Part shown: positions 3,479 to 20,496 of the stretch, in pieces
Layout: the number at the start of each line of letters is the position of its first letter
How positions within the stretch are numbered: the stretch's first letter is position 1
Source: Christensenellaceae bacterium
GTDB taxonomy: Bacteria > Bacillota > Clostridia > Christensenellales > Aristaeellaceae
DNA length: 51,892 nt
NCBI GenBank assembly: GCA_022510815.1
Contig: JAFLST010000018.1
Location: 1-51,892 of the forward strand
Direction: 5' to 3'
Translations under genes and position numbers: made by a program
Notes under the pieces: model-generated
The model's input: the letters and a program-made list of their open reading frames with translations, nothing else
Database searches by the model: none
Told to the model about the DNA's origin: nothing

Positions 3479-4585
3479 ATGCGGATCAAGTGGGCTGTGG
3501 CGGCGCTGCTTTGCCTGCTGCTGGCGCTGCCTGCCATGGCGGAGGAAGGCAGCCTCTCCGTGCTGGGCGTGGACGTTCCGCAGGGAGCGGTCACCGTTGA
3601 TCTGACGTCCCTGACCAAGGTCACGAAAAAGCAGGCGCAGGAGCTGAGCAAAGCCCTCGGCGTGCTGCCGGACGCGGCTGAGGTCGATCTGCGCGGCGTG
3701 ACCGTTGACCGCGGCGGTCAGAGCGAGCTGCTTGCGGCGCATCCGGGCGTGCATTTCCTGTGGGAGGTCTCCCTCGCCGGAGTCCTCGTGGACGGCGACG
3801 CGACCGAGCTGAACATCGACGAGCTTGGCATCAGCGCAAAGACGGAGCTCAAGGAGATTCGCGCCGCCATCGCCTGTCTGCCGAAGCTGGAGCATGTCAC
3901 AATGTACAGCTTGATCTATGCCAAGAACACCATGGAAAAGCTGCTGGCGGACTACCCGGACGTCCAGTTTGACTGGAGCATCCACTGGAACATCTGCAGC
4001 GGCCGCGTGGTGAACCTGCGCACTGACGCTACGGCGTTCTCCACCCTCAAGGGCCGTCAGGACCCGCGCTACACCGCCAGCCAGATCATGGACTACCTCC
4101 AATACACGCCCGATCTGCTGGCCATCGACGTGGGACACAACAACGTCTCCGACCTGTCCTTCCTCGCCAACTGGCCGGGACTGCGGCGGCTCATCTGCAT
4201 CGACAGCAAGAAGCCCGTCACCGATATCAGCGTGATGGCCGACCTGCCGGACCTCGAGTATGTCGAGCTGTTCATGCAGAACATCACCGATCTCTCGCCG
4301 CTGGCGAACCACACAAAGCTCCTCGACCTGAACCTGTGTCACAACAGCATCGAGGACTTTTCTCCGCTCTATTCCTGCACCAGTCTGGAACGCCTGTACA
4401 TCTCCAACAACCCCGGCCTGAACGACGAGGCCATCGCGGCGCTGCAGGCGGCCCTGCCGAACTGCCTGATCGAGACGGAGGTCTGGGGCTCCACCGACGC
4501 GGGCTGGCGGGAGCATCCACGGTACTTCACGATGTATCAGAGCTTTGAGGACAATACCTACTATCCCTTTGAGGACGCGGAATAA
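3479..4585 (+). CDS. Secreted leucine-rich-repeat protein
   Basis: This is an exported protein of 368 residues. The start at 3479 is preferred over ATGs at 3470 and 3473 because AAAGGAG (3463-3469) is then properly spaced and a signal peptide follows directly (ending LPAMAEE). Two repeated blocks of about 90 residues precede the repeats; both contain DLTSL- or ELNID-like strands and a 'hP-V-F-W' ending. From about residue 210 come leucine-rich repeats (LLAIDVGHNNVSDLSFLANW, YVELFMQNITDLSPLANH, LLDLNLCHNSIEDFSPLYS), spaced as in the SDS22/internalin type. Such repeats usually bind protein or glycan. No anchor motif is present. Its place between NAGPA genes and a beta-galactosidase suggests a role in surface glycan handling, by inference only. 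Confidence 0.75.
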   Translation: MRIKWAVAALLCLLLALPAMAEEGSLSVLGVDVPQGAVTVDLTSLTKVTKKQAQELSKALGVLPDAAEVDLRGVTVDRGGQSELLAAHPGVHFLWEVSLAGVLVDGDATELNIDELGISAKTELKEIRAAIACLPKLEHVTMYSLIYAKNTMEKLLADYPDVQFDWSIHWNICSGRVVNLRTDATAFSTLKGRQDPRYTASQIMDYLQYTPDLLAIDVGHNNVSDLSFLANWPGLRRLICIDSKKPVTDISVMADLPDLEYVELFMQNITDLSPLANHTKLLDLNLCHNSIEDFSPLYSCTSLERLYISNNPGLNDEAIAALQAALPNCLIETEVWGSTDAGWREHPRYFTMYQSFEDNTYYPFEDAE

Positions 4586-4610
4586 CCACCCGACCGAAAG
4601 GAGCATTCCC

Positions 4611-7600
4611 ATGCGCAAGACGCCGCAGGGCCCCTTCACCCCCGACTGGCTGGCCGACCCGGAAATCTTCTCCGTGAACGCGCTGCCGCCCTTCTCCGAC
4701 CACGAGATTTATGCCAGTCTTGAGGAAGCGGACGCTGGAGCCTCCTCGCTGGTGCGCTCGCTGGACGGGACGTGGCGCGCGCATTTCGCCCTGAACCCCG
4801 ATGGCACGCCGGACAGCCTGCTGAGCGACGGCTCCGGCGACGGGGAGCTGACGGCCATCAGCGTGCCCTGCGAGTTCCAGCTCGTTAATCCCGAGTGGGA
4901 CCCGCCGCACTATGTCAACACCCAGTATCCGTGGGACGGTCACGAGGCGCTCGAAGCCCCGCAGGTCTCGAAGGAGTACAACCCGACCGTCACGGCGATC
5001 CGCGTATTCGAGCTGTCTGCGGAGGACGTCGGCAACCCGGATCAGGATATTGTGCTGACCTTCGGCGGCGTGGAGGCGGCAGTGGCCGTGTACATGAACG
5101 GCGCCTTCGTCGGCTATGCGGAGGACAGCTTCACGCCCCATCACTTCGATGTGACGAAGTTTGTCAAGCCCGGCGAGAACCGGTTGGTCGCCCGGGTATT
5201 CAAGCGCTGCTCGGGCTCGTGGCTGGAGGATCAGGATTTCTGGCGGTTCAGCGGCATCCACCGCAGCGTCACGCTGTCCTTCTGGCCGAAGGTGCATCTG
5301 CTCGACCTGCGCGTCCAGACCCCGCTCACGGACAACTACACCAAGGCCGGGCTGTGGGCCGGGCTGAACATCCACGGTTGTCTGAACGGCACGGTTGAGC
5401 TGGCTCTGACGGCTGAAGACGGCATGGTTCTCCTGCGGCAGGAAAAGGCTCCGGTCGGCGCGCAGCTCATTTTCTGCGAGCCTGAGATTCCGGGCGTGAA
5501 GCTCTGGTCGGCAGAGGAGCCCAACCTCTACGCGCTGACCGTCACGCTCAGGGACGCGGCTGGCGAGACCGTGGAGGTCGCCCGCACGATGGTAGGCTTC
5601 CGGCAGTTCGAGATGATCGACAAGATCATGTGCCTGAACGGCAAGCGCATCGTCTTCCACGGCGTGAACCGCCACGAGTTCGACTGCGACCGGGGCCGCG
5701 TGATGACCGAGGAGCTGCTGCTGCAGGACATCCGCGACATGAAGAGCCTCAACGTCAACGCCGTACGCACCTGCCATTATCCGAACACCTCGCTGTTCTA
5801 CAGGCTGTGCGATCGGTACGGCCTCTACGTCATCGACGAGACGAACATCGAGAGTCACGGCTCTTGGGCCCCGCTGCACCACTGGTATGTCCCCGGAGAC
5901 AAGCCCGAGTGGCGTGAGGCGGTGCTCTGCCGCGGCCGGGCCATGATGGAGCGGGACAAGAACCACGCCTGCATCCTCCTGTGGAGCTGCGGCAACGAGA
6001 GCTATGGCGGCTCGAATCTCAAGGCCCTCAGCGATATGTTCCGCGCCGAGGACCCGACCCGGCTGGTGCACTACGAGGGCGTGGCCAATGACCGCCGCTA
6101 TCCCGATACCACCGATGTTTGCAGCCGGATGTACGCCAAGGTGGCGGATATCGAGAGCTACCTGCAGGGCAACCCCGACAAACCCTTCATCAACTGCGAA
6201 TACACCCACGCCATGGGTAACTCCTGCGGCGGCATGCACCTCTATGCCGAGCTGGAGGACAAGTACCCCCTGTATCAGGGCGGCTTCATCTGGGACTACG
6301 TCGATCAGGCGCTGCGCACCACGGCTCCCAACGGTCACGAGCGGCTGGCCTATGGCGGCGATTTCGGCGACAAGCCCACGGACTGGCAGTTCAATACCAA
6401 TGGCATCATCCTCGGCGACAGGACGTTCACGCCCAAGTGTCAGGAGGTACGCCATGTTTTCCGCGACGTGTGGCTCAAGCCCGGCAAGACCGGCGTGACC
6501 GTCACCAACCGCCGCGTGTTCGCGCCCGTGAAGGACTGCGACATCCGCTGGACGGTGGAGTGCGACCGCATGCCCGTCAAGGCCGGCGAGGTGATGCTGC
6601 CGGAGGTTCCGGCGGGCGAATCCCTGCACATGAACCTGCCCTACGGCAAGCTGCCCGAGGAGGGGCAGGTGGTGCTTACCTGCTTCCTCGTGCTCCGGGA
6701 ACAGAGCGGCCTGCTGCCCGCGGGCACGGTGCTCTCGCAGGGCCAGACAGTGTTCGGCGAGACGGTGGTCGAGGAACTGCCGGACAACGCGGGCTGGCCT
6801 GTGGTGGGCGACAGCAACATCGGCCTGCGGGGCGACGGACTGGGCGCGCTGCTGGAACGCGGCGCCGGGCTCATCTCCTTCCGCGACAGGGCCGGGCATG
6901 AGACGATGCTGCGCGCGCCGCAGCTCTCCCTGTTCCGCGCGCCGACGGACAACGACCGGGGCAACCGCAACGCCCTCAAGCAGGGGATCTGGCACATGGT
7001 CAGCCGCTATAGCTGGACCACCGGCGCGAAGGCCGATATCCGCGAGGGACGCACCGATGTGACCTATCACTACCATAACGCCCTGCTGCCGGAGCTCGAT
7101 CTGCCGGTGACCTACACATGGCGGCGCAGCGACGAGCTGGAGATCACCGTGAGCTGGCCGGGCGTGGCGAATCAGCCTGACCTGCCCGCGCTGGGCCTAT
7201 CCTTCCAGCTCGGTCCGCGGCTTAACACCGTGCGCTACTATGGCCTCGGCCCCGACGAGAGCTACGTCGACCGCTGCACGGGCGCGCTGCTGGGCTGGCA
7301 CAGCTACCCGGTCAGCGAAGGCCTGACCCGCTACGAGTTCCCGCAGGAGAGCGGCAACCGCATGGGCGTGCAGGTGATGACCATCACCGGCGCGGACGGC
7401 CACGGCATTGAGATTTCCGGCAGCAGCCTCGAGATCAGCGTCTCGCCCTACCTGCCCGAGGAGGTGGCGGCGGCCTATCACTACGAGGAGCTGCAGGGCT
7501 CCTGCCGCACGGTGCTCGACGTGGCGCTGTTCCGCAAGGGCGTGGGCGGCGACGACAGCTGGGGCGCGCCGGTGCTGCCGCAGTACAGATATCCGTCCGA

Positions 7601-7640
7601 TCAGCCGTATACGCTGACCTTCAAGCTGCGGGCTATCTAA
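4611..7640 (+). CDS. lacZ: Beta-galactosidase, glycoside hydrolase family 2
   Basis: This 1,009-residue enzyme has the LacZ layout: a jelly-roll sugar-binding domain (SLDGTWRAHF, VPCEFQL), a beta-sandwich, the TIM barrel, and the C-terminal Bgal small-chain domain. The barrel shows GVNRHEFDCDRGRV, DETNIESHG and WSCGNESYGG with the acid/base Glu463. The nucleophile Glu530 lies in NCEYTHAMGNS, and both residues match the E. coli LacZ motifs. The late domain includes LFRAPTDNDRG and YYGLGPDESYVDR. There is no signal peptide, so it acts in the cytoplasm on imported galactosides. The ATG at 4611 has AAAGGAG at 4597-4603. It is 25 bp after the LRR gene, and no transporter gene is adjacent. Confidence 0.95.
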   Translation: MRKTPQGPFTPDWLADPEIFSVNALPPFSDHEIYASLEEADAGASSLVRSLDGTWRAHFALNPDGTPDSLLSDGSGDGELTAISVPCEFQLVNPEWDPPHYVNTQYPWDGHEALEAPQVSKEYNPTVTAIRVFELSAEDVGNPDQDIVLTFGGVEAAVAVYMNGAFVGYAEDSFTPHHFDVTKFVKPGENRLVARVFKRCSGSWLEDQDFWRFSGIHRSVTLSFWPKVHLLDLRVQTPLTDNYTKAGLWAGLNIHGCLNGTVELALTAEDGMVLLRQEKAPVGAQLIFCEPEIPGVKLWSAEEPNLYALTVTLRDAAGETVEVARTMVGFRQFEMIDKIMCLNGKRIVFHGVNRHEFDCDRGRVMTEELLLQDIRDMKSLNVNAVRTCHYPNTSLFYRLCDRYGLYVIDETNIESHGSWAPLHHWYVPGDKPEWREAVLCRGRAMMERDKNHACILLWSCGNESYGGSNLKALSDMFRAEDPTRLVHYEGVANDRRYPDTTDVCSRMYAKVADIESYLQGNPDKPFINCEYTHAMGNSCGGMHLYAELEDKYPLYQGGFIWDYVDQALRTTAPNGHERLAYGGDFGDKPTDWQFNTNGIILGDRTFTPKCQEVRHVFRDVWLKPGKTGVTVTNRRVFAPVKDCDIRWTVECDRMPVKAGEVMLPEVPAGESLHMNLPYGKLPEEGQVVLTCFLVLREQSGLLPAGTVLSQGQTVFGETVVEELPDNAGWPVVGDSNIGLRGDGLGALLERGAGLISFRDRAGHETMLRAPQLSLFRAPTDNDRGNRNALKQGIWHMVSRYSWTTGAKADIREGRTDVTYHYHNALLPELDLPVTYTWRRSDELEITVSWPGVANQPDLPALGLSFQLGPRLNTVRYYGLGPDESYVDRCTGALLGWHSYPVSEGLTRYEFPQESGNRMGVQVMTITGADGHGIEISGSSLEISVSPYLPEEVAAAYHYEELQGSCRTVLDVALFRKGVGGDDSWGAPVLPQYRYPSDQPYTLTFKLRAI

Positions 7641-13685: not shown

Positions 13686-13734
13686 GAAAAGCCTGAAAAG
13701 AAAAGGCCTTGCGGGCCATAGCGCGCCAAAAAAC

Positions 13735-13858
13735 TCATGGGAGGCGTCGGAGCGTCCGCGGGCCCTTCGACTTTCGTACAAAAAACGGACCATATGCGCG
13801 ACTGTTTTGAATGATTCGCTAAAATCTCCCTGCAGGCATGGGCAGGCTGGCGTCGGAC
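13735..13858 (+). ncRNA. Candidate structured RNA, copy A
   Basis: This non-coding segment is homologous to 19772-19899. A 27-nt block (13739-13765) matches copy B at 23 positions, and a 31-nt block (13828-13858) matches at 24, with a similar spacing (62 versus 66 nt). The first block folds as a hairpin: stem 13746-13754 with 13763-13771, with one C-C mismatch, and an 8-nt loop TCCGCGGG. The loop sequence TCCG can pair with CGGA at 13854-13857, giving a possible pseudoknot. It lies upstream of the GH31 gene, which has its own promoter downstream. The class was not recognised; the strand is inferred from the neighbours. Confidence 0.55.
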
Positions 13859-13907
13859 TGACCATGACTGAATCACCCGTAAAAGTGGCAAAGCCGCTTT
13901 TGCGACA

Positions 13908-13936
13908 TTGCGGAGACCTCCCGCTTGTGGTACAAT
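13908..13936 (+). promoter_or_regulatory. Sigma-A promoter with extended -10 for the GH31 operon
   Basis: The -35 box TTGCGG (13908-13913) and -10 box TACAAT (13931-13936) are 17 bp apart, with an extended TG at 13928-13929. The start codon is at 13969. Confidence 0.7.
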
Positions 13937-13968: not shown

Positions 13969-15951
13969 ATGAGCAAGCTGACCGCCACCGACCGCGGCAT
14001 CCTGTTTCAGATGCGCGACGAGACCGTGCTGATCGAGCCCTACGGCGAGAACGTCATCCGCGTCCGCGCGTCACGCAACGCCCGCCTCTCCGACGAGCGC
14101 TGGACCCTCGAGCCCCCGCGGCCCGATCAGGCGGCGATCACCTGCGACGGAGAGCGCGCCGCCATGCATAATGGCCTCATCTCCTGCGAGGTGTACAAGG
14201 TCTGGGGCGGCTGGCAGATGCGCGTGCTGCGCAAGGGCGTCGAGATTCTCCGCACCCGCGAGGAAGGCGACCCCATCCGCAAATATCAGCACACCGAGGG
14301 CAATCACTACCGCGTCCGGGCGCTGTTCGAGGCCCGGGAAGGCGAGCGCTTATACGGCCTCGGCCAGGAACAGCAGCCCTTCTTTAACCGCAAGGGATGC
14401 TCCTGCGAGCTGATTCACTACAACACCAAGTCCGCCATGCCCGTGGTCTATTCATCGCTGGGCTACGGCTTCCTGTGGAACAACCCCGCGCCGGGGCTGG
14501 CGGAGTTCACCAACAACCACACCCTCTGGCAGTGCGACAGCGCCTATCAGGCGGACTACCTGATCTATGCGGGTGAAACGCCCGCCGACGTGATGCGCCT
14601 CTACGCCCAGCTCACCGGCTTCTCACCGGAGATGCCCGACTGGGCCGCGGGCTTCTGGCAGTGCAAGCTGCGCTACGAGAGTCAGGACGACCTGCTGGCG
14701 GTGGCGAGGGAGTATCACCGCCGGGGCGTGCCGGTGGACGCGATCGTCATCGACTACTTCCACTGGACGGAGCAGGGCAACTGGGAGTTCGACCCCGAGC
14801 TGTGGCCCGACCCCAAGGCCATGTGCGATGAGCTCTACGCCATGGGCATCCGCCCGGTGGTGTCCATCTGGCCCACCATCAACCCCGCCAGCCATAACTG
14901 GAACGCCATGAATGACGAGAACATGCTCGTCCGCACCGAGAACGGTCAGTACGGCGCGTTCGAGTTCTACGGGCAGCAGACCTTCATCGACCCGACCAAC
15001 CCGCGTACCCGCGAGTATGTCTGGGAGCAGGTGAAGAAAACCTACTACAGCTACGGCATCCGCACCTTCTGGCTGGATGAAGCGGAGCCGGAGGTACACC
15101 CGCAGCAGTTCCAGAACCTGCGCTTTCACATCGGCAACGGCGCGCAGACCGCGCTGCTCTATCCCTACTACTACGCCAAGGCCTTCCATGACGGCCTGAA
15201 AGCGGAGGGCGAGCAGGACGTCGTTTCCCTGACCCGCTGCAGCTATCCCGGCAGCCAGAAGTTCGGCGCGGTGGTCTGGAACGGCGACATCCCCTCCACA
15301 TGGCAGGCGCTCAGGGAGAGCGTCGTCTCGGGTCTGTCCATGGCCATGTGCGGCATCCCGTGGTGGAACAGCGACATCGGCGGCTTCCTGTTCGGCGATG
15401 TCGAGAGCGATGATTTCCGCGAGCTGATCGTCCGCTGGTTCCAGTTCGGGCTGTTCTGCCCGGTAATGCGCCTCCACGGCTCCCGCCAGCGCACCAAGGA
15501 TCAGGTTGACCGCCATCCCGGCGTGAAGGAGCGCTCCGGCGGCGACAACGAGCTGTGGTCCTTCGGTGAGCGCAACTGGCCCATCCTGCGGGATCTGGTG
15601 CACCTGCGGGCCCGGCTCAAGCCCTATATCCTCGCCTGCGCCAAGCGGACCGCCGCCACGGGCGAACCGATCATGCGCCCGATGTTCTTCGACTTCCCCG
15701 CCGATGACCGCAGCTATGACCTCGCCGATCAGTACATGTTCGGCCCGGACATACTCTTCGCGCCCATCATGGCCCCGGGCCAGACCGACCGCGAGGTCTA
15801 CCTGCCTGAAGGCCGCTGGATCAGCGTGAACGGCGGCGCGGCCGTCACAGGCGGACAGACCGTCACCTGCCATGCGGAGATCGGCGAGTTTATCGCCTTT
15901 GTCCGCGAGGGCGCTGCGGTGCTCGAGGCGTTCCACGGAGGCGACGCATGA
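13969..15951 (+). CDS. Glycoside hydrolase family 31 (alpha-glucosidase/alpha-xylosidase type)
   Basis: This 660-residue retaining glycosidase has an N-terminal beta-sandwich (YGLGQEQQPFFNRKG), a TIM barrel, and a C-terminal beta domain. The nucleophile Asp370 lies in FWLDEAEPE and the acid/base Asp440 in VWNGDIPSTW, both GH31 signatures. GIPWWNSDIGGF and RLHGSR line the active site. There is no signal peptide, so it acts on imported oligosaccharides. The ATG at 13969 has AGGAGG at 13955-13960. It overlaps the next gene by 4 bases (ATGA). Alpha-glucosidase and alpha-xylosidase activity cannot be told apart by eye. Confidence 0.9.
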   Translation: MSKLTATDRGILFQMRDETVLIEPYGENVIRVRASRNARLSDERWTLEPPRPDQAAITCDGERAAMHNGLISCEVYKVWGGWQMRVLRKGVEILRTREEGDPIRKYQHTEGNHYRVRALFEAREGERLYGLGQEQQPFFNRKGCSCELIHYNTKSAMPVVYSSLGYGFLWNNPAPGLAEFTNNHTLWQCDSAYQADYLIYAGETPADVMRLYAQLTGFSPEMPDWAAGFWQCKLRYESQDDLLAVAREYHRRGVPVDAIVIDYFHWTEQGNWEFDPELWPDPKAMCDELYAMGIRPVVSIWPTINPASHNWNAMNDENMLVRTENGQYGAFEFYGQQTFIDPTNPRTREYVWEQVKKTYYSYGIRTFWLDEAEPEVHPQQFQNLRFHIGNGAQTALLYPYYYAKAFHDGLKAEGEQDVVSLTRCSYPGSQKFGAVVWNGDIPSTWQALRESVVSGLSMAMCGIPWWNSDIGGFLFGDVESDDFRELIVRWFQFGLFCPVMRLHGSRQRTKDQVDRHPGVKERSGGDNELWSFGERNWPILRDLVHLRARLKPYILACAKRTAATGEPIMRPMFFDFPADDRSYDLADQYMFGPDILFAPIMAPGQTDREVYLPEGRWISVNGGAAVTGGQTVTCHAEIGEFIAFVREGAAVLEAFHGGDA

Positions 15952-17351: not shown

Positions 17352-18607
17352 TTTTCGATCTGGACGGTACGCTGACCCGCTCCGAGCAGGGCATCTGGAA
17401 CAGCGTGCGCTATGTGGCCGAGCAGCTCCATCTGCCCGTGCCGGACGCACCGACCCTGCGCAAGTTCATCGGCCCGCCGCTGGACTACAGCTTCCAGACA
17501 TGGATGGGCATGACCCCGGAGCAAGCCGATGAGGCGACCCGCATCTACCGCGCCCGCTATCAGGAGGTCGGACTGTTTGAAAACCGGGTCTATCCCGGCA
17601 TCCGGCGGCTGCTGCGCGGGCTGAAGGCGCAGGGCTGCTGGGTCGGCGTGGCAACGGGCAAGCCGCAGGGCCCCTCCGAGCGCATCATCGAGCATTTCGG
17701 ACTGGCGCCCTTTGTCGACCGGATCGTCGGCCCCACGGTCAAGATGGGCGCTGAGAAGGACGCGCTGATCCGCAAGGCCCTGCCGGGGGAATACGGCGAG
17801 GCATGGATGGTCGGCGACCGCAAGTTCGACGTCGAAGGCGGCAGGGCGGTGGGCATCAGGACCCTTGGCGTGGGCTACGGCTACGGCTCCGAGGAGGAGC
17901 TGCGCGCCGCCGGGTGCGACGCCTACGCCGCCACGGTGCAGGACGTGATCGACCTGTTCTGCCCGGAATACAAGGCCGACGGCGCGTTCCTGTCCATGGA
18001 GGGCCTCGACGGAAGCGGCAAGACCACCCAGATGGGGCTGCTCACTGAGGCGCTGGATTGCTGGGGCTTCGAGGTTGTCACCAGCCGTGAGCCCGGCGGC
18101 TGCAAGGTTGCCGAAGCCATCCGCGGCGTGGTGCTCAGCCGGGAGAACGTGGGCATGACCGACGTCACCGAGGCGCTGCTGTATGCCGCTGCCCGGGCCC
18201 AGCATGTGCGGGAGGTCATCCGTCCGGCCATCGCCGCGGGCAAGGTGCTGCTCTGCGACCGCTTTGTCGACTCCTCCGTGGCCTATCAGGGCGGCGGCCG
18301 GGAGCTGGGCGTACAGTGGGTTCTCGATATCAACACCCCCGCCGTGGACGGCACGCTGCCGCTGGCAACGGTCTACCTCGACATAGGCCACCGGGAGTCC
18401 CTTCGCCGCCGGGCCGCGGCGACGGAGCTCGACCGCCTCGAGATGGAGGGCGACAGCTTCCATGCCCGGACGGAGGCCGCGTATCGGGAGCTGATCGCCC
18501 GCGACCCGCAGCGCTTCATCGTCGTTGACGCGACCCGCAGCCCGGAGACCATCGGGCAGGAGATCGCCGACAGGGTGCTGGCGCGGCTGATGGAGGCCGG
18601 ATTATGA
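17330..18607 (+). CDS. Fusion: HAD-family phosphatase and thymidylate kinase
   Basis: This single 425-residue protein contains two enzymes. Residues 1-215 form a HAD phosphatase of the phosphoglycolate-phosphatase type: motif I FDLDGTL (nucleophile Asp10), the cap [17 protein letters not shown], and motif [15 protein letters not shown]. Residues 219-425 form a complete thymidylate kinase with the P-loop [11 protein letters not shown] (Lys231), [19 protein letters not shown], and a lid with [15 protein letters not shown] makes dTDP for DNA synthesis; the HAD half might remove a related nucleotide. GTG at 17330 is the start, with AAGGAGA at 17314-17320, and overlaps the upstream gene by 22 bases. 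No stop or frameshift interrupts the junction. Confidence 0.88.
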
Positions 18608-19695
18608 GCGAGCGCATTGTCGTGGGCATGTCCGGCGGGGTCGATTCCGCTGTCTCGGCGCTGCTGCTCAAGCGGCAGGGCTACGACGTGGTCGGCGTGT
18701 TCATGAAGAACTGGGAGGAGCAGGATGACGCGGGCGTGTGCACTGCCGAGGCCGACTGGCAGGATGTGCGCGACGTGTGCGATGTGATCGGCATCCCCTA
18801 TTACGCCGTCAACTTCGCCAGAGAATACTGGGATCGGGTGTTCAGCTACTTCCTCGAGGAGTACCGCGCGGGCCGCACGCCCAACCCGGACGTGCTATGC
18901 AACCGGGAGATCAAGTTCAAGGCTTTTCTTGACTTCGCGATGCAGCTCGGCGCGTCGAAGATGGCGACAGGCCACTTTGTCCAGACCAACGAAAGGGGCG
19001 ACCTGCTGCGCGGCGCCGATCCGAACAAGGATCAGAGCTACTTCCTCTACATGCTCCGTCAGTCCCAGCTCAAGCAGGCGATTTTCCCCGTCGGCGGGCT
19101 GACCAAGCAGCAGGTGCGGCAGATCGCGGCGGACGCGGGCCTGCCCGTCAGCGCAAAGAAGGACTCCACCGGCGTGTGCTTCATCGGCGAGCGAAAGTTC
19201 AAGCAGTTTCTCGCCACCTACCTGCCCGCCCAGCCCGGCGAGATGGTTGCTCCAGACGGCACGGTGGTCGGTCGGCACGACGGCCTGATGTACTACACCC
19301 TCGGCCAGCGGCGGGGCTTGGGCATCGGCGGACGCGGCGACGGCCGGAGCTGGTTTGTCATCGGCAAGGATCTCGACCACAACCGCCTCCTCGTCGCGCA
19401 GGGCGAGGATCACCCGATGCTCTATGCCACCGAGTGCCTCGCAGGCGGCGTGACATGGGTCGGCGAAGCTCCCCTGCAGGAGGGTGAGACGCTCTCCTGC
19501 ACCTGCAAGTTCCGCTACCGCCAGCAAGATCAGCCCGTCGAAGTCACCCTGCAAAGCGGCAAGCTGCTGATCCGCTCCCTGACCCCGCAGCGGGCCGTTA
19601 CCCCCGGTCAGAGCGCCGTGCTCTACAGCGGCGACACCTGCCTCGGCGGCGCGGTGGTCGAAACCGTGCTCAACCCCGGTGCCGCTCTTTCATAA
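18604..19695 (+). CDS. mnmA: tRNA-specific 2-thiouridylase MnmA
   Basis: This 363-residue cytoplasmic enzyme puts sulfur on uridine 34 of tRNA Lys, Glu and Gln. The ATP pyrophosphatase P-loop [14 protein letters not shown] opens the protein. The first catalytic Cys lies in [12 protein letters not shown], and the second in [25 protein letters not shown] and [14 protein letters not shown] are further family signatures. The length matches other MnmA proteins. Its start overlaps the TMK stop by 4 bases, so it belongs to the GH31 operon. No terminator is obvious downstream. Confidence 0.96.
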
Positions 19696-19749: not shown

Positions 19750-19771
19750 CGTATTCAATCCTTCCGGGAAA

Positions 19772-19899
19772 CCACGGGAGGTATCGGAGGGTCCGCAGGC
19801 CCTCTGATTGCAATCGGAAACCAGCGACATGTGCAGCGGTTTTCGCACGTTCTCACCTGAGAGCGCTTCCTTACAGGCGTTGGCTGTCTGGCATCGGAC
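19772..19899 (+). ncRNA. Candidate structured RNA, copy B, in the leader of the XRE-cupin gene
   Basis: This is the second copy of the element at 13735-13858. Its hairpin has a 9-bp stem, 19783-19791 with 19800-19808, and an 8-nt loop TCCGCAGG. Against copy A, the outermost pair changes from G-C to A-T, which supports a real stem. The loop TCCG can pair with CGGA at 19895-19898. A second stem (TCTCA/TGAGA near 19851-19862) is present only here. It ends 39 bp before the start codon of the XRE-cupin gene, so it could act as a leader or as a separate RNA. Confidence 0.58.
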
Positions 19900-19938
19900 A
19901 AACAAGCCTGCAAAAATCTCGTAAAAGGAGGTATCATT

Positions 19939-20496
19939 GTGTCCGACCAAGTAAGACAGATCGCCATGCGCATCACAGACTTGCGTGAAATTTCGGACTA
20001 CACCGTTGCCCAGATGGCCGAGGCCTGCGGCGTATCCGAGGAGGACTATGCCGCCTATGAGAGCGGGGAGATCGATATCCCGATCAGCTTCCTGCTCAAG
20101 CTCAACGAGATCTTCCACGTCGACATGACGGAGCTTCTCACGGGCGAAGCGCCGCGGCTGAACCTGTTCTCCATCACCCGCGCGGGCAAGGGGCAGGACA
20201 TCCAGCGCCGCAATCACTACATCTACAAGAACCTTGGCTATAATTTCGTGCACCGCAAGATCGAGCCGCTGTACGTCACCATCCCGGCGGGTACCAACAG
20301 GGAGCTCCAGCCCAACAGCCATGAGGGGCAGGAGTTTGACTACATTCTCTCCGGCGCCATGAAGCTGCTGGTGGCCGGGCATGAGGTGATCCTGCGCCCC
20401 GGCGACAGCGTCTACTACGACAGCCGCGCGCCCCACGCCATGACCTGCGCGGGGGATGAGCCGGTGCACTTTCTGGCCATGGTGATTCCCGATTAA
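19939..20496 (+). CDS. XRE-family regulator with a cupin domain
   Basis: This 185-residue DNA-binding regulator has an N-terminal helix-turn-helix (VAQMAEACGVSEEDYAAYESGE, residues 22-43) and a C-terminal cupin barrel (EGQEFDYILSGAMKL, RPGDSVYYDSRAPHAM, residues 125-175). Such proteins sense a small ligand in the cupin barrel. It lies 18 bp before an acyl-CoA synthetase, a pair seen in other Bacillota, and probably controls it. Start is a GTG at 19939 with an AAAGGAGG site 7 nt upstream. The ligand is unknown; a fatty or aromatic acid would fit the neighbour. Confidence 0.85.
   Translation: MSDQVRQIAMRITDLREISDYTVAQMAEACGVSEEDYAAYESGEIDIPISFLLKLNEIFHVDMTELLTGEAPRLNLFSITRAGKGQDIQRRNHYIYKNLGYNFVHRKIEPLYVTIPAGTNRELQPNSHEGQEFDYILSGAMKLLVAGHEVILRPGDSVYYDSRAPHAMTCAGDEPVHFLAMVIPD

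Follow-up and report, generated by a model that had tools for sequence, protein, structure and literature searches.

A dispersed family of five-hairpin miniature elements in Clostridia, probably transposons moved by an IS1182-family transposase, with old copies upstream of GH31 and XRE genes

The locus and its genes

The window analyzed here is the whole 51,892-nucleotide stretch of contig JAFLST010000018.1 from a Christensenellaceae bacterium (assembly GCA_022510815.1). Two related non-coding segments, A and B, are located on its forward strand. Segment A (13719..13912) lies upstream of a forward-strand gene for a GH31 glycosyl hydrolase (13969..15951; PF01055, 266 bits). Segment B (19756..19928) lies between forward-strand genes for an MnmA-type tRNA thiouridylase (18604..19695; PF03054, 267.5 bits) and a helix-turn-helix and cupin regulator, here XRE (19939..20496; PF07883 and HTH matches). 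Elsewhere in the window, an 849-codon open frame on the reverse strand (4527-7076) runs antisense to a 1031-codon frame on the forward strand (4545-7640); this long antisense frame, in G+C-rich DNA, is probably spurious.

The original prediction described A and B as two copies of a structured RNA element that share two conserved blocks. Recounting gave exactly the identities claimed, 23 of 27 positions in the first block (from 13739/13740 in A and 19776/19777 in B) and 24 of 31 in the second (from 13827/13828 and 19868/19869), and the blocks are indeed at nearly equal spacing in both segments. The best 27-base match among 200 letter shuffles was 19, against the 23 observed. The extent first assigned to A, 13735..13858, proved too short at both limits; alignment of copies together with their flanks adds a longer hairpin 4, a hairpin 5 and terminal repeats. 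The ends of A given above come from alignment to copies that carry target duplications. Those of B come from alignments in which its hairpin 5 and right end are decayed and reach the ribosome binding site of the next gene. A covariance model of the element, R1, matches A at 13737-13907 (130.2 bits) and B at 19774-19948 (125.3 bits).

A dispersed family

Instead of two copies, there is a dispersed family with many matches in the same genome (2.74 Mb, 77 contigs). A DNA search with B gave 25 matches at E<=10, of which 13 were below 1e-4 and some were fragments of a single copy; with A there were 33, including 10 below 1e-4. R1 produced 86 matches at E<=1, including 40 at E<1e-9, with several of the weaker ones being opposite-strand shadows of the same copies. 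Under stricter filters, R1 matches at E<=1e-3 were found in 25 of 60 sampled genomes: the window's own genome, 16 of 17 further genomes of its genus, 7 of 18 from other genera of the family, and 1 of 24 from other families of the order. The element is about 190-215 bp long, is non-coding, contains no transposase gene, and is present in many copies per genome, as expected of a miniature transposon (MITE). The Rfam comparison proposed in the original prediction returned no match, either for the whole window at the gathering score or for segments A and B at E<=10. A sequence pattern scan of genome contigs gave 107 stretches; among the 80 listed, many were in metagenome-assembled genomes (MAGs) of gut Clostridia and in Candidatus Limiplasma pullicola, and we infer that those scattered over unrelated phyla are chance matches. 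Several contigs of genome G002 begin or end inside near-identical MITE copies (L051-L054; other contig ends are alike). Because the repeat breaks assemblies, the copy counts are probably too low.

Secondary structure

Copies aligned with their flanks share an architecture of five hairpins, H1 to H5. H1 has an 11-bp stem and a CGCA loop, a better drawing than the 8-nt loop originally given. It occupies 13746..13771 in A, where the loop is CGCG, and 19783..19808 in B, and its outer pair does change from G-C in A (13746/13771) to A-T in B (19783/19808), as predicted. H2 has a conserved loop near GACATGCGC and is found at 13782..13808 in A, partly decayed, and at 19816..19844 in B. H3 is variable (19848..19865 in B) and is followed by CTTCCTTACA; the linker of A at 13828..13834 matches the conserved CCUUACA. 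H4 is a long hairpin (13833..13870 in A, where it contains the second block; 19874..19910 in B) and is a module, with a different hairpin in its place in the copies examined from G002, G025 and G030. H5, at 13878..13904 in A, adjoins the right end. All of these are on the forward strand. An extra hairpin-like insert in the H2 loop, around GCCCCTTCGGGGC, is present in L049, L055, L056, L061, L063, L069, L070 and L072; it reads GCCTC in L063, and insert-bearing copies occur in both G002 and G025. ERIC and other MITEs form one long fold-back, in contrast to the several separate hairpins seen here.

Covariation across homologues, which the original prediction had proposed to look for, is present. 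A 12-copy alignment gave 52 predicted pairs, and for 26 of these one or more copies have both partners changed. Over 77 copies, aligned by fitting to the covariance model, 47 of the 52 show both-side changes, and 94.8% of cells pair, compared with 77.5% when shuffled and 34.6-47.8% with slid partners. Folded as a single strand, A is no better than its shuffles (z 1.09), so the structure rests on comparison; B gave a z of -2.25. Additionally, the loops and the linker are conserved, with 23 of 94 unpaired columns reaching 90% or more. G-U cells outnumber A-C cells 164 to 58 on the forward strand. The two are even in H2 (20:19) and H3 (7:11), the excess is in H1, H4 and H5, and a handful of fixed positions in H1 and H4 supply much of it. 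With the alignment itself fitted to an RNA model, and the excess concentrated and uneven, this is modest evidence for the forward strand.

A pairing between the H1 loop and the 3' block had also been predicted. Although 37 of 45 cells are able to form it, all four pairs are present in only 3 of 12 copies. Controls with slid partners pair in 3 to 30 of 45 cells, and the copies examined from G002, G025 and G030 have other sequence in place of the 3' partner block. The core letters hardly vary, which places this pairing beyond the covariation test, and the pseudoknot stays unproven.

Relation to neighboring genes

Strong covariation, conserved loops and linker, and the position of B directly upstream of a gene would all suit a cis-regulatory RNA class or regulon element, a riboswitch-like leader of the GH31 and XRE genes. 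However, the right-hand gene shares the strand of the element for only 30 of the 60 copies considered. These 60, from a set of 73 copies, are those with both neighbors called (++ 18, -- 19, -+ 12, +- 11) by a crude open reading frame calling that mis-called the left neighbor of A. R1 found nothing convincing at three orthologous XRE loci (L239, L240 and L242, with one 8-bit partial match at L242) or at six orthologous GH31 loci (L251-L256), and over the 24 orthologue loci searched the best match besides A and B reached 15.9 bits (L258). The upstream stretches of L240 and L242 (XRE) and of L253 and L255 (GH31) contain promoter-like sequence followed by a Shine-Dalgarno sequence, with no element between. 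Together with the missing Rfam match and the terminal repeats and target duplications described below, these results make a regulatory RNA very improbable. What stands of the dispersed RNA family or regulon originally suggested is a dispersed family with conserved secondary structure; a regulatory class or regulon is unsupported.

Scans for promoters and terminators called nothing near A or B. Alignment to the orthologue L255 nevertheless indicates a probable GH31 promoter, uncalled by the scan, TTGCGG-17-TACAAT at 13908-13936. Copy A reaches with its right end into the -35-like TTGCGG of this predicted promoter, which would place A at or above the promoter and outside the leader. Copy B, between a promoter-like stretch and the XRE gene start, is a lineage-specific insertion in the 5' region. 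At 19918-19938, the ribosome binding site of the HTH-cupin gene (AAAAGGAGG) abuts the apparent H5 remains of B (CTCGTAAAAGG), and for this reason the old insertion may now belong to the leader of that gene.

Ends, target duplications and empty sites

The fresher copies begin with CAG and finish with CTG or near it, and the same terminator-like hairpin is found on either side of the element. The terminal inverted repeats are about 15 bp long and imperfect (5' CAGACCATCAACAAA against the reverse of 3' CAGCGTATCGACAAA, plus variants). A flanking duplication was detected at a score threshold of 11 in 31 of 73 copies and in 0 of 217 re-paired flank controls, the best of which scored 5; the 42 copies without one include some cut by contig ends. 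Exact duplications measure 33 bp (L045), 28 bp (L073), 32 bp (L070) and 44 bp (L082), and in the window's own genome 27 bp (L018) and 24 bp (L013). Only 4 of the 20 own-genome copies in the set passed this test. No flanking target duplication was found at the borders of A and B, and A is an old copy with decayed ends.

When the folds of the 31 duplicated sequences were compared with those of 300 random windows matched in length, 20 ranked in the best 5%. These are clear hairpins, typically whole terminator stem-loops. At least four T in the eight bases after the duplication were counted in 12 of 31 cases, and at least four A in the eight bases before it in 19 of 31. The 11 duplications that miss the 5% threshold include several matches that stop inside a hairpin; those of L064 and L069 are not clear hairpins.

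Counterparts of two filled sites carry a single hairpin. At the L049 locus, G002 has hairpin, MITE and hairpin; in G016 and G017 the same two flanks enclose a single terminator hairpin. The counterpart of the own-genome copy L018 in G001 is about 225 bases shorter, with one hairpin and no element; beyond G001, a search with the L018 flanks gave only distant matches. R1 found no copy in these G016, G017 and G001 counterparts. The intergenic gap that holds the L049 copy in G002 also contains a MITE copy in G012 (L274, about 2353-2557), and the two are possibly independent insertions at one terminator. The outcome known from IS1272, in which the target hairpin is deleted and no duplication is left, was not seen, as the exact cases keep the hairpin on both sides.

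A structured body, terminator-hairpin targets and duplications of varied length are also compatible with a remnant of a group IIC-like intron or other retroelement, inserting beside terminator hairpins by target-primed reverse transcription. Group IIC introns do insert beside such hairpins, but they are ribozyme retroelements without terminal inverted repeats. The elements described here have such repeats at both ends, their duplication borders fall at the hairpin feet, they lack an Rfam intron match, and DDE-type insertion sequences share similar ends, all of which leaves this origin scarcely credible.

An IS1182-type partner

An intact transposase of G002 (L097), with DDE transposase domains, matches the NCBIfam IS1182 model NF033551 at 415 bits (cut-off 270), and 18 of 150 genomes of the bacterial family contain matches that exceed this cut-off. 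Repeats were found exactly at CAG-starting ends in 4 of the 31 IS1182-type loci scanned, many of which are fragmentary. These end repeats are 25 bp (L097), 31 bp (L209), 22 bp (L210) and 20-21 bp (L213) long and all four fold as hairpins; additionally, hairpins lie a short way inside most ends of the four elements. When MITE rows starting with CAG, the only ones used, are compared with the ends of these insertion sequences, up to 14 of 16 positions agree, and G002 has both kinds of element in one genome. In several other rows the end was misplaced, as the duplication match overran it or fell short of it. One further candidate, L218, was not counted: a 44-bp palindrome is repeated (608 and 3138, 2.5 kb apart) round the IS1182-type transposase of G160, without CAG ends.

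The assemblies of the window's genome (G000) and of G030, which has fresh MITE copies, gave no IS1182 transposase; G025 yielded weak fragments only, and a PF13751 search of eight genomes matched in G002 only. Draft assemblies often drop repeated insertion sequences. Outside its ends, the MITE shows no similarity to any of the four IS1182 elements at E<=0.05. The negative searches of G000 and G030 and the unrelated body are points for a hairpin-targeting transposase of another family as the mover. Against this, the end sequence and the duplication of a whole hairpin are shared with IS1182 elements of the same bacterial family, and we consider another transposase family improbable.

Interpretation

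Segment A is most likely a now decayed MITE, of a family that measures about 190-215 bp and is mobilized in trans by an IS1182-family transposase, a reading to which we assign a probability of roughly 0.88. Points against it are the negative transposase searches in G000 and G030, the dissimilar body, and the many copies, A and B among them, that show no duplication. Dispersed structured copies, terminal repeats, hairpin duplications, single-hairpin empty sites, and IS1182 elements whose ends and hairpin duplications resemble those of the MITE were observed directly; the role of the transposase in moving the MITE is deduced from these sequence likenesses. A and B are best read as old copies of a mobile element with an unusually structured body, not as a gene-control RNA switch. 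The original prediction had named a transposon end as a contrary possibility, which came close, but it is the entire segment that appears to be a miniature transposon.

In the proposed mechanism, the transposase would bind the terminal repeats of about 15 bp, and the ends of the element would be joined, in a presumed order, to the 5' feet of the terminator hairpin on the two strands. Gap repair would then leave a full copy of the hairpin on each side. With a whole hairpin on each side, the invaded terminator would be expected to go on functioning.

DNA repair can keep the arms of palindromes matched, and this would mimic covariation. The covariation seen here exceeds the needs of a passive MITE, a point against the MITE reading, and the conserved unpaired columns and the G-U excess in H1, H4 and H5 leave room for a role as single strand or RNA. 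The five-hairpin body may be kept by selection for hairpins in the transposing DNA or in a read-through transcript. A more specific proposal, which has a small chance of being correct, is that the body acts as single-stranded nucleic acid, probably the forward-strand read-through transcript of the invaded terminator, recognized by the IS1182-type transposase or a host factor. If true, the element would be no passive MITE but a terminator-tuned DNA transposon assisted by structured RNA.

Palindrome targeting is already known in relatives of the IS1182 family; the five-hairpin body is the unusual part. According to excerpts of two reports (PMC5678879, PMC4923244), IS1182-family elements including IS1272 and TnSha1 likewise have terminal inverted repeats and a DDE transposase and target hairpins, or inverted repeats and terminators, without a sequence motif. 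IS1272 and TnSha1 remove or replace the hairpin and leave no duplication, whereas here the hairpin is found on both sides, and unlike IS1182 elements the MITE family is about 200 bp long and codes for nothing. A possible pathway of 5'-foot attack that duplicates the whole stem-loop is drawn in an excerpt of PMC5678879, and the elements described here fit that branch of its stem-loop transposition model. BOX, RUP and SPRITE of Streptococcus pneumoniae, in the excerpts of PMC3049150, are also short, dispersed, non-coding MITE-like repeats with extensive predicted secondary structure, and BOX itself is modular. Those excerpts report no terminator-hairpin duplication for them, their hosts are unrelated, and SPRITE is itself terminator-like instead of having a terminator as its target. 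ERIC and other bacterial MITEs share the non-autonomous character, intergenic location, terminal repeats and structured transcripts (excerpts of PMC10969869), and IS1182 does not occur in that review. The listings of open PMC papers showed no IS1182-derived MITE and no record of the present five-hairpin family.

The proposed origin accounts for structured repeats, dispersed in uncultured gut Clostridia, of a kind that a comparative RNA screen could mistake for a riboswitch class, and strong covariation alone is thus no proof of a regulatory RNA. It also provides many natural cases in which the target duplication is a whole transcription terminator, a mode of insertion that should leave gene ends working. 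The elements offer a direct system for testing structure-guided target choice.
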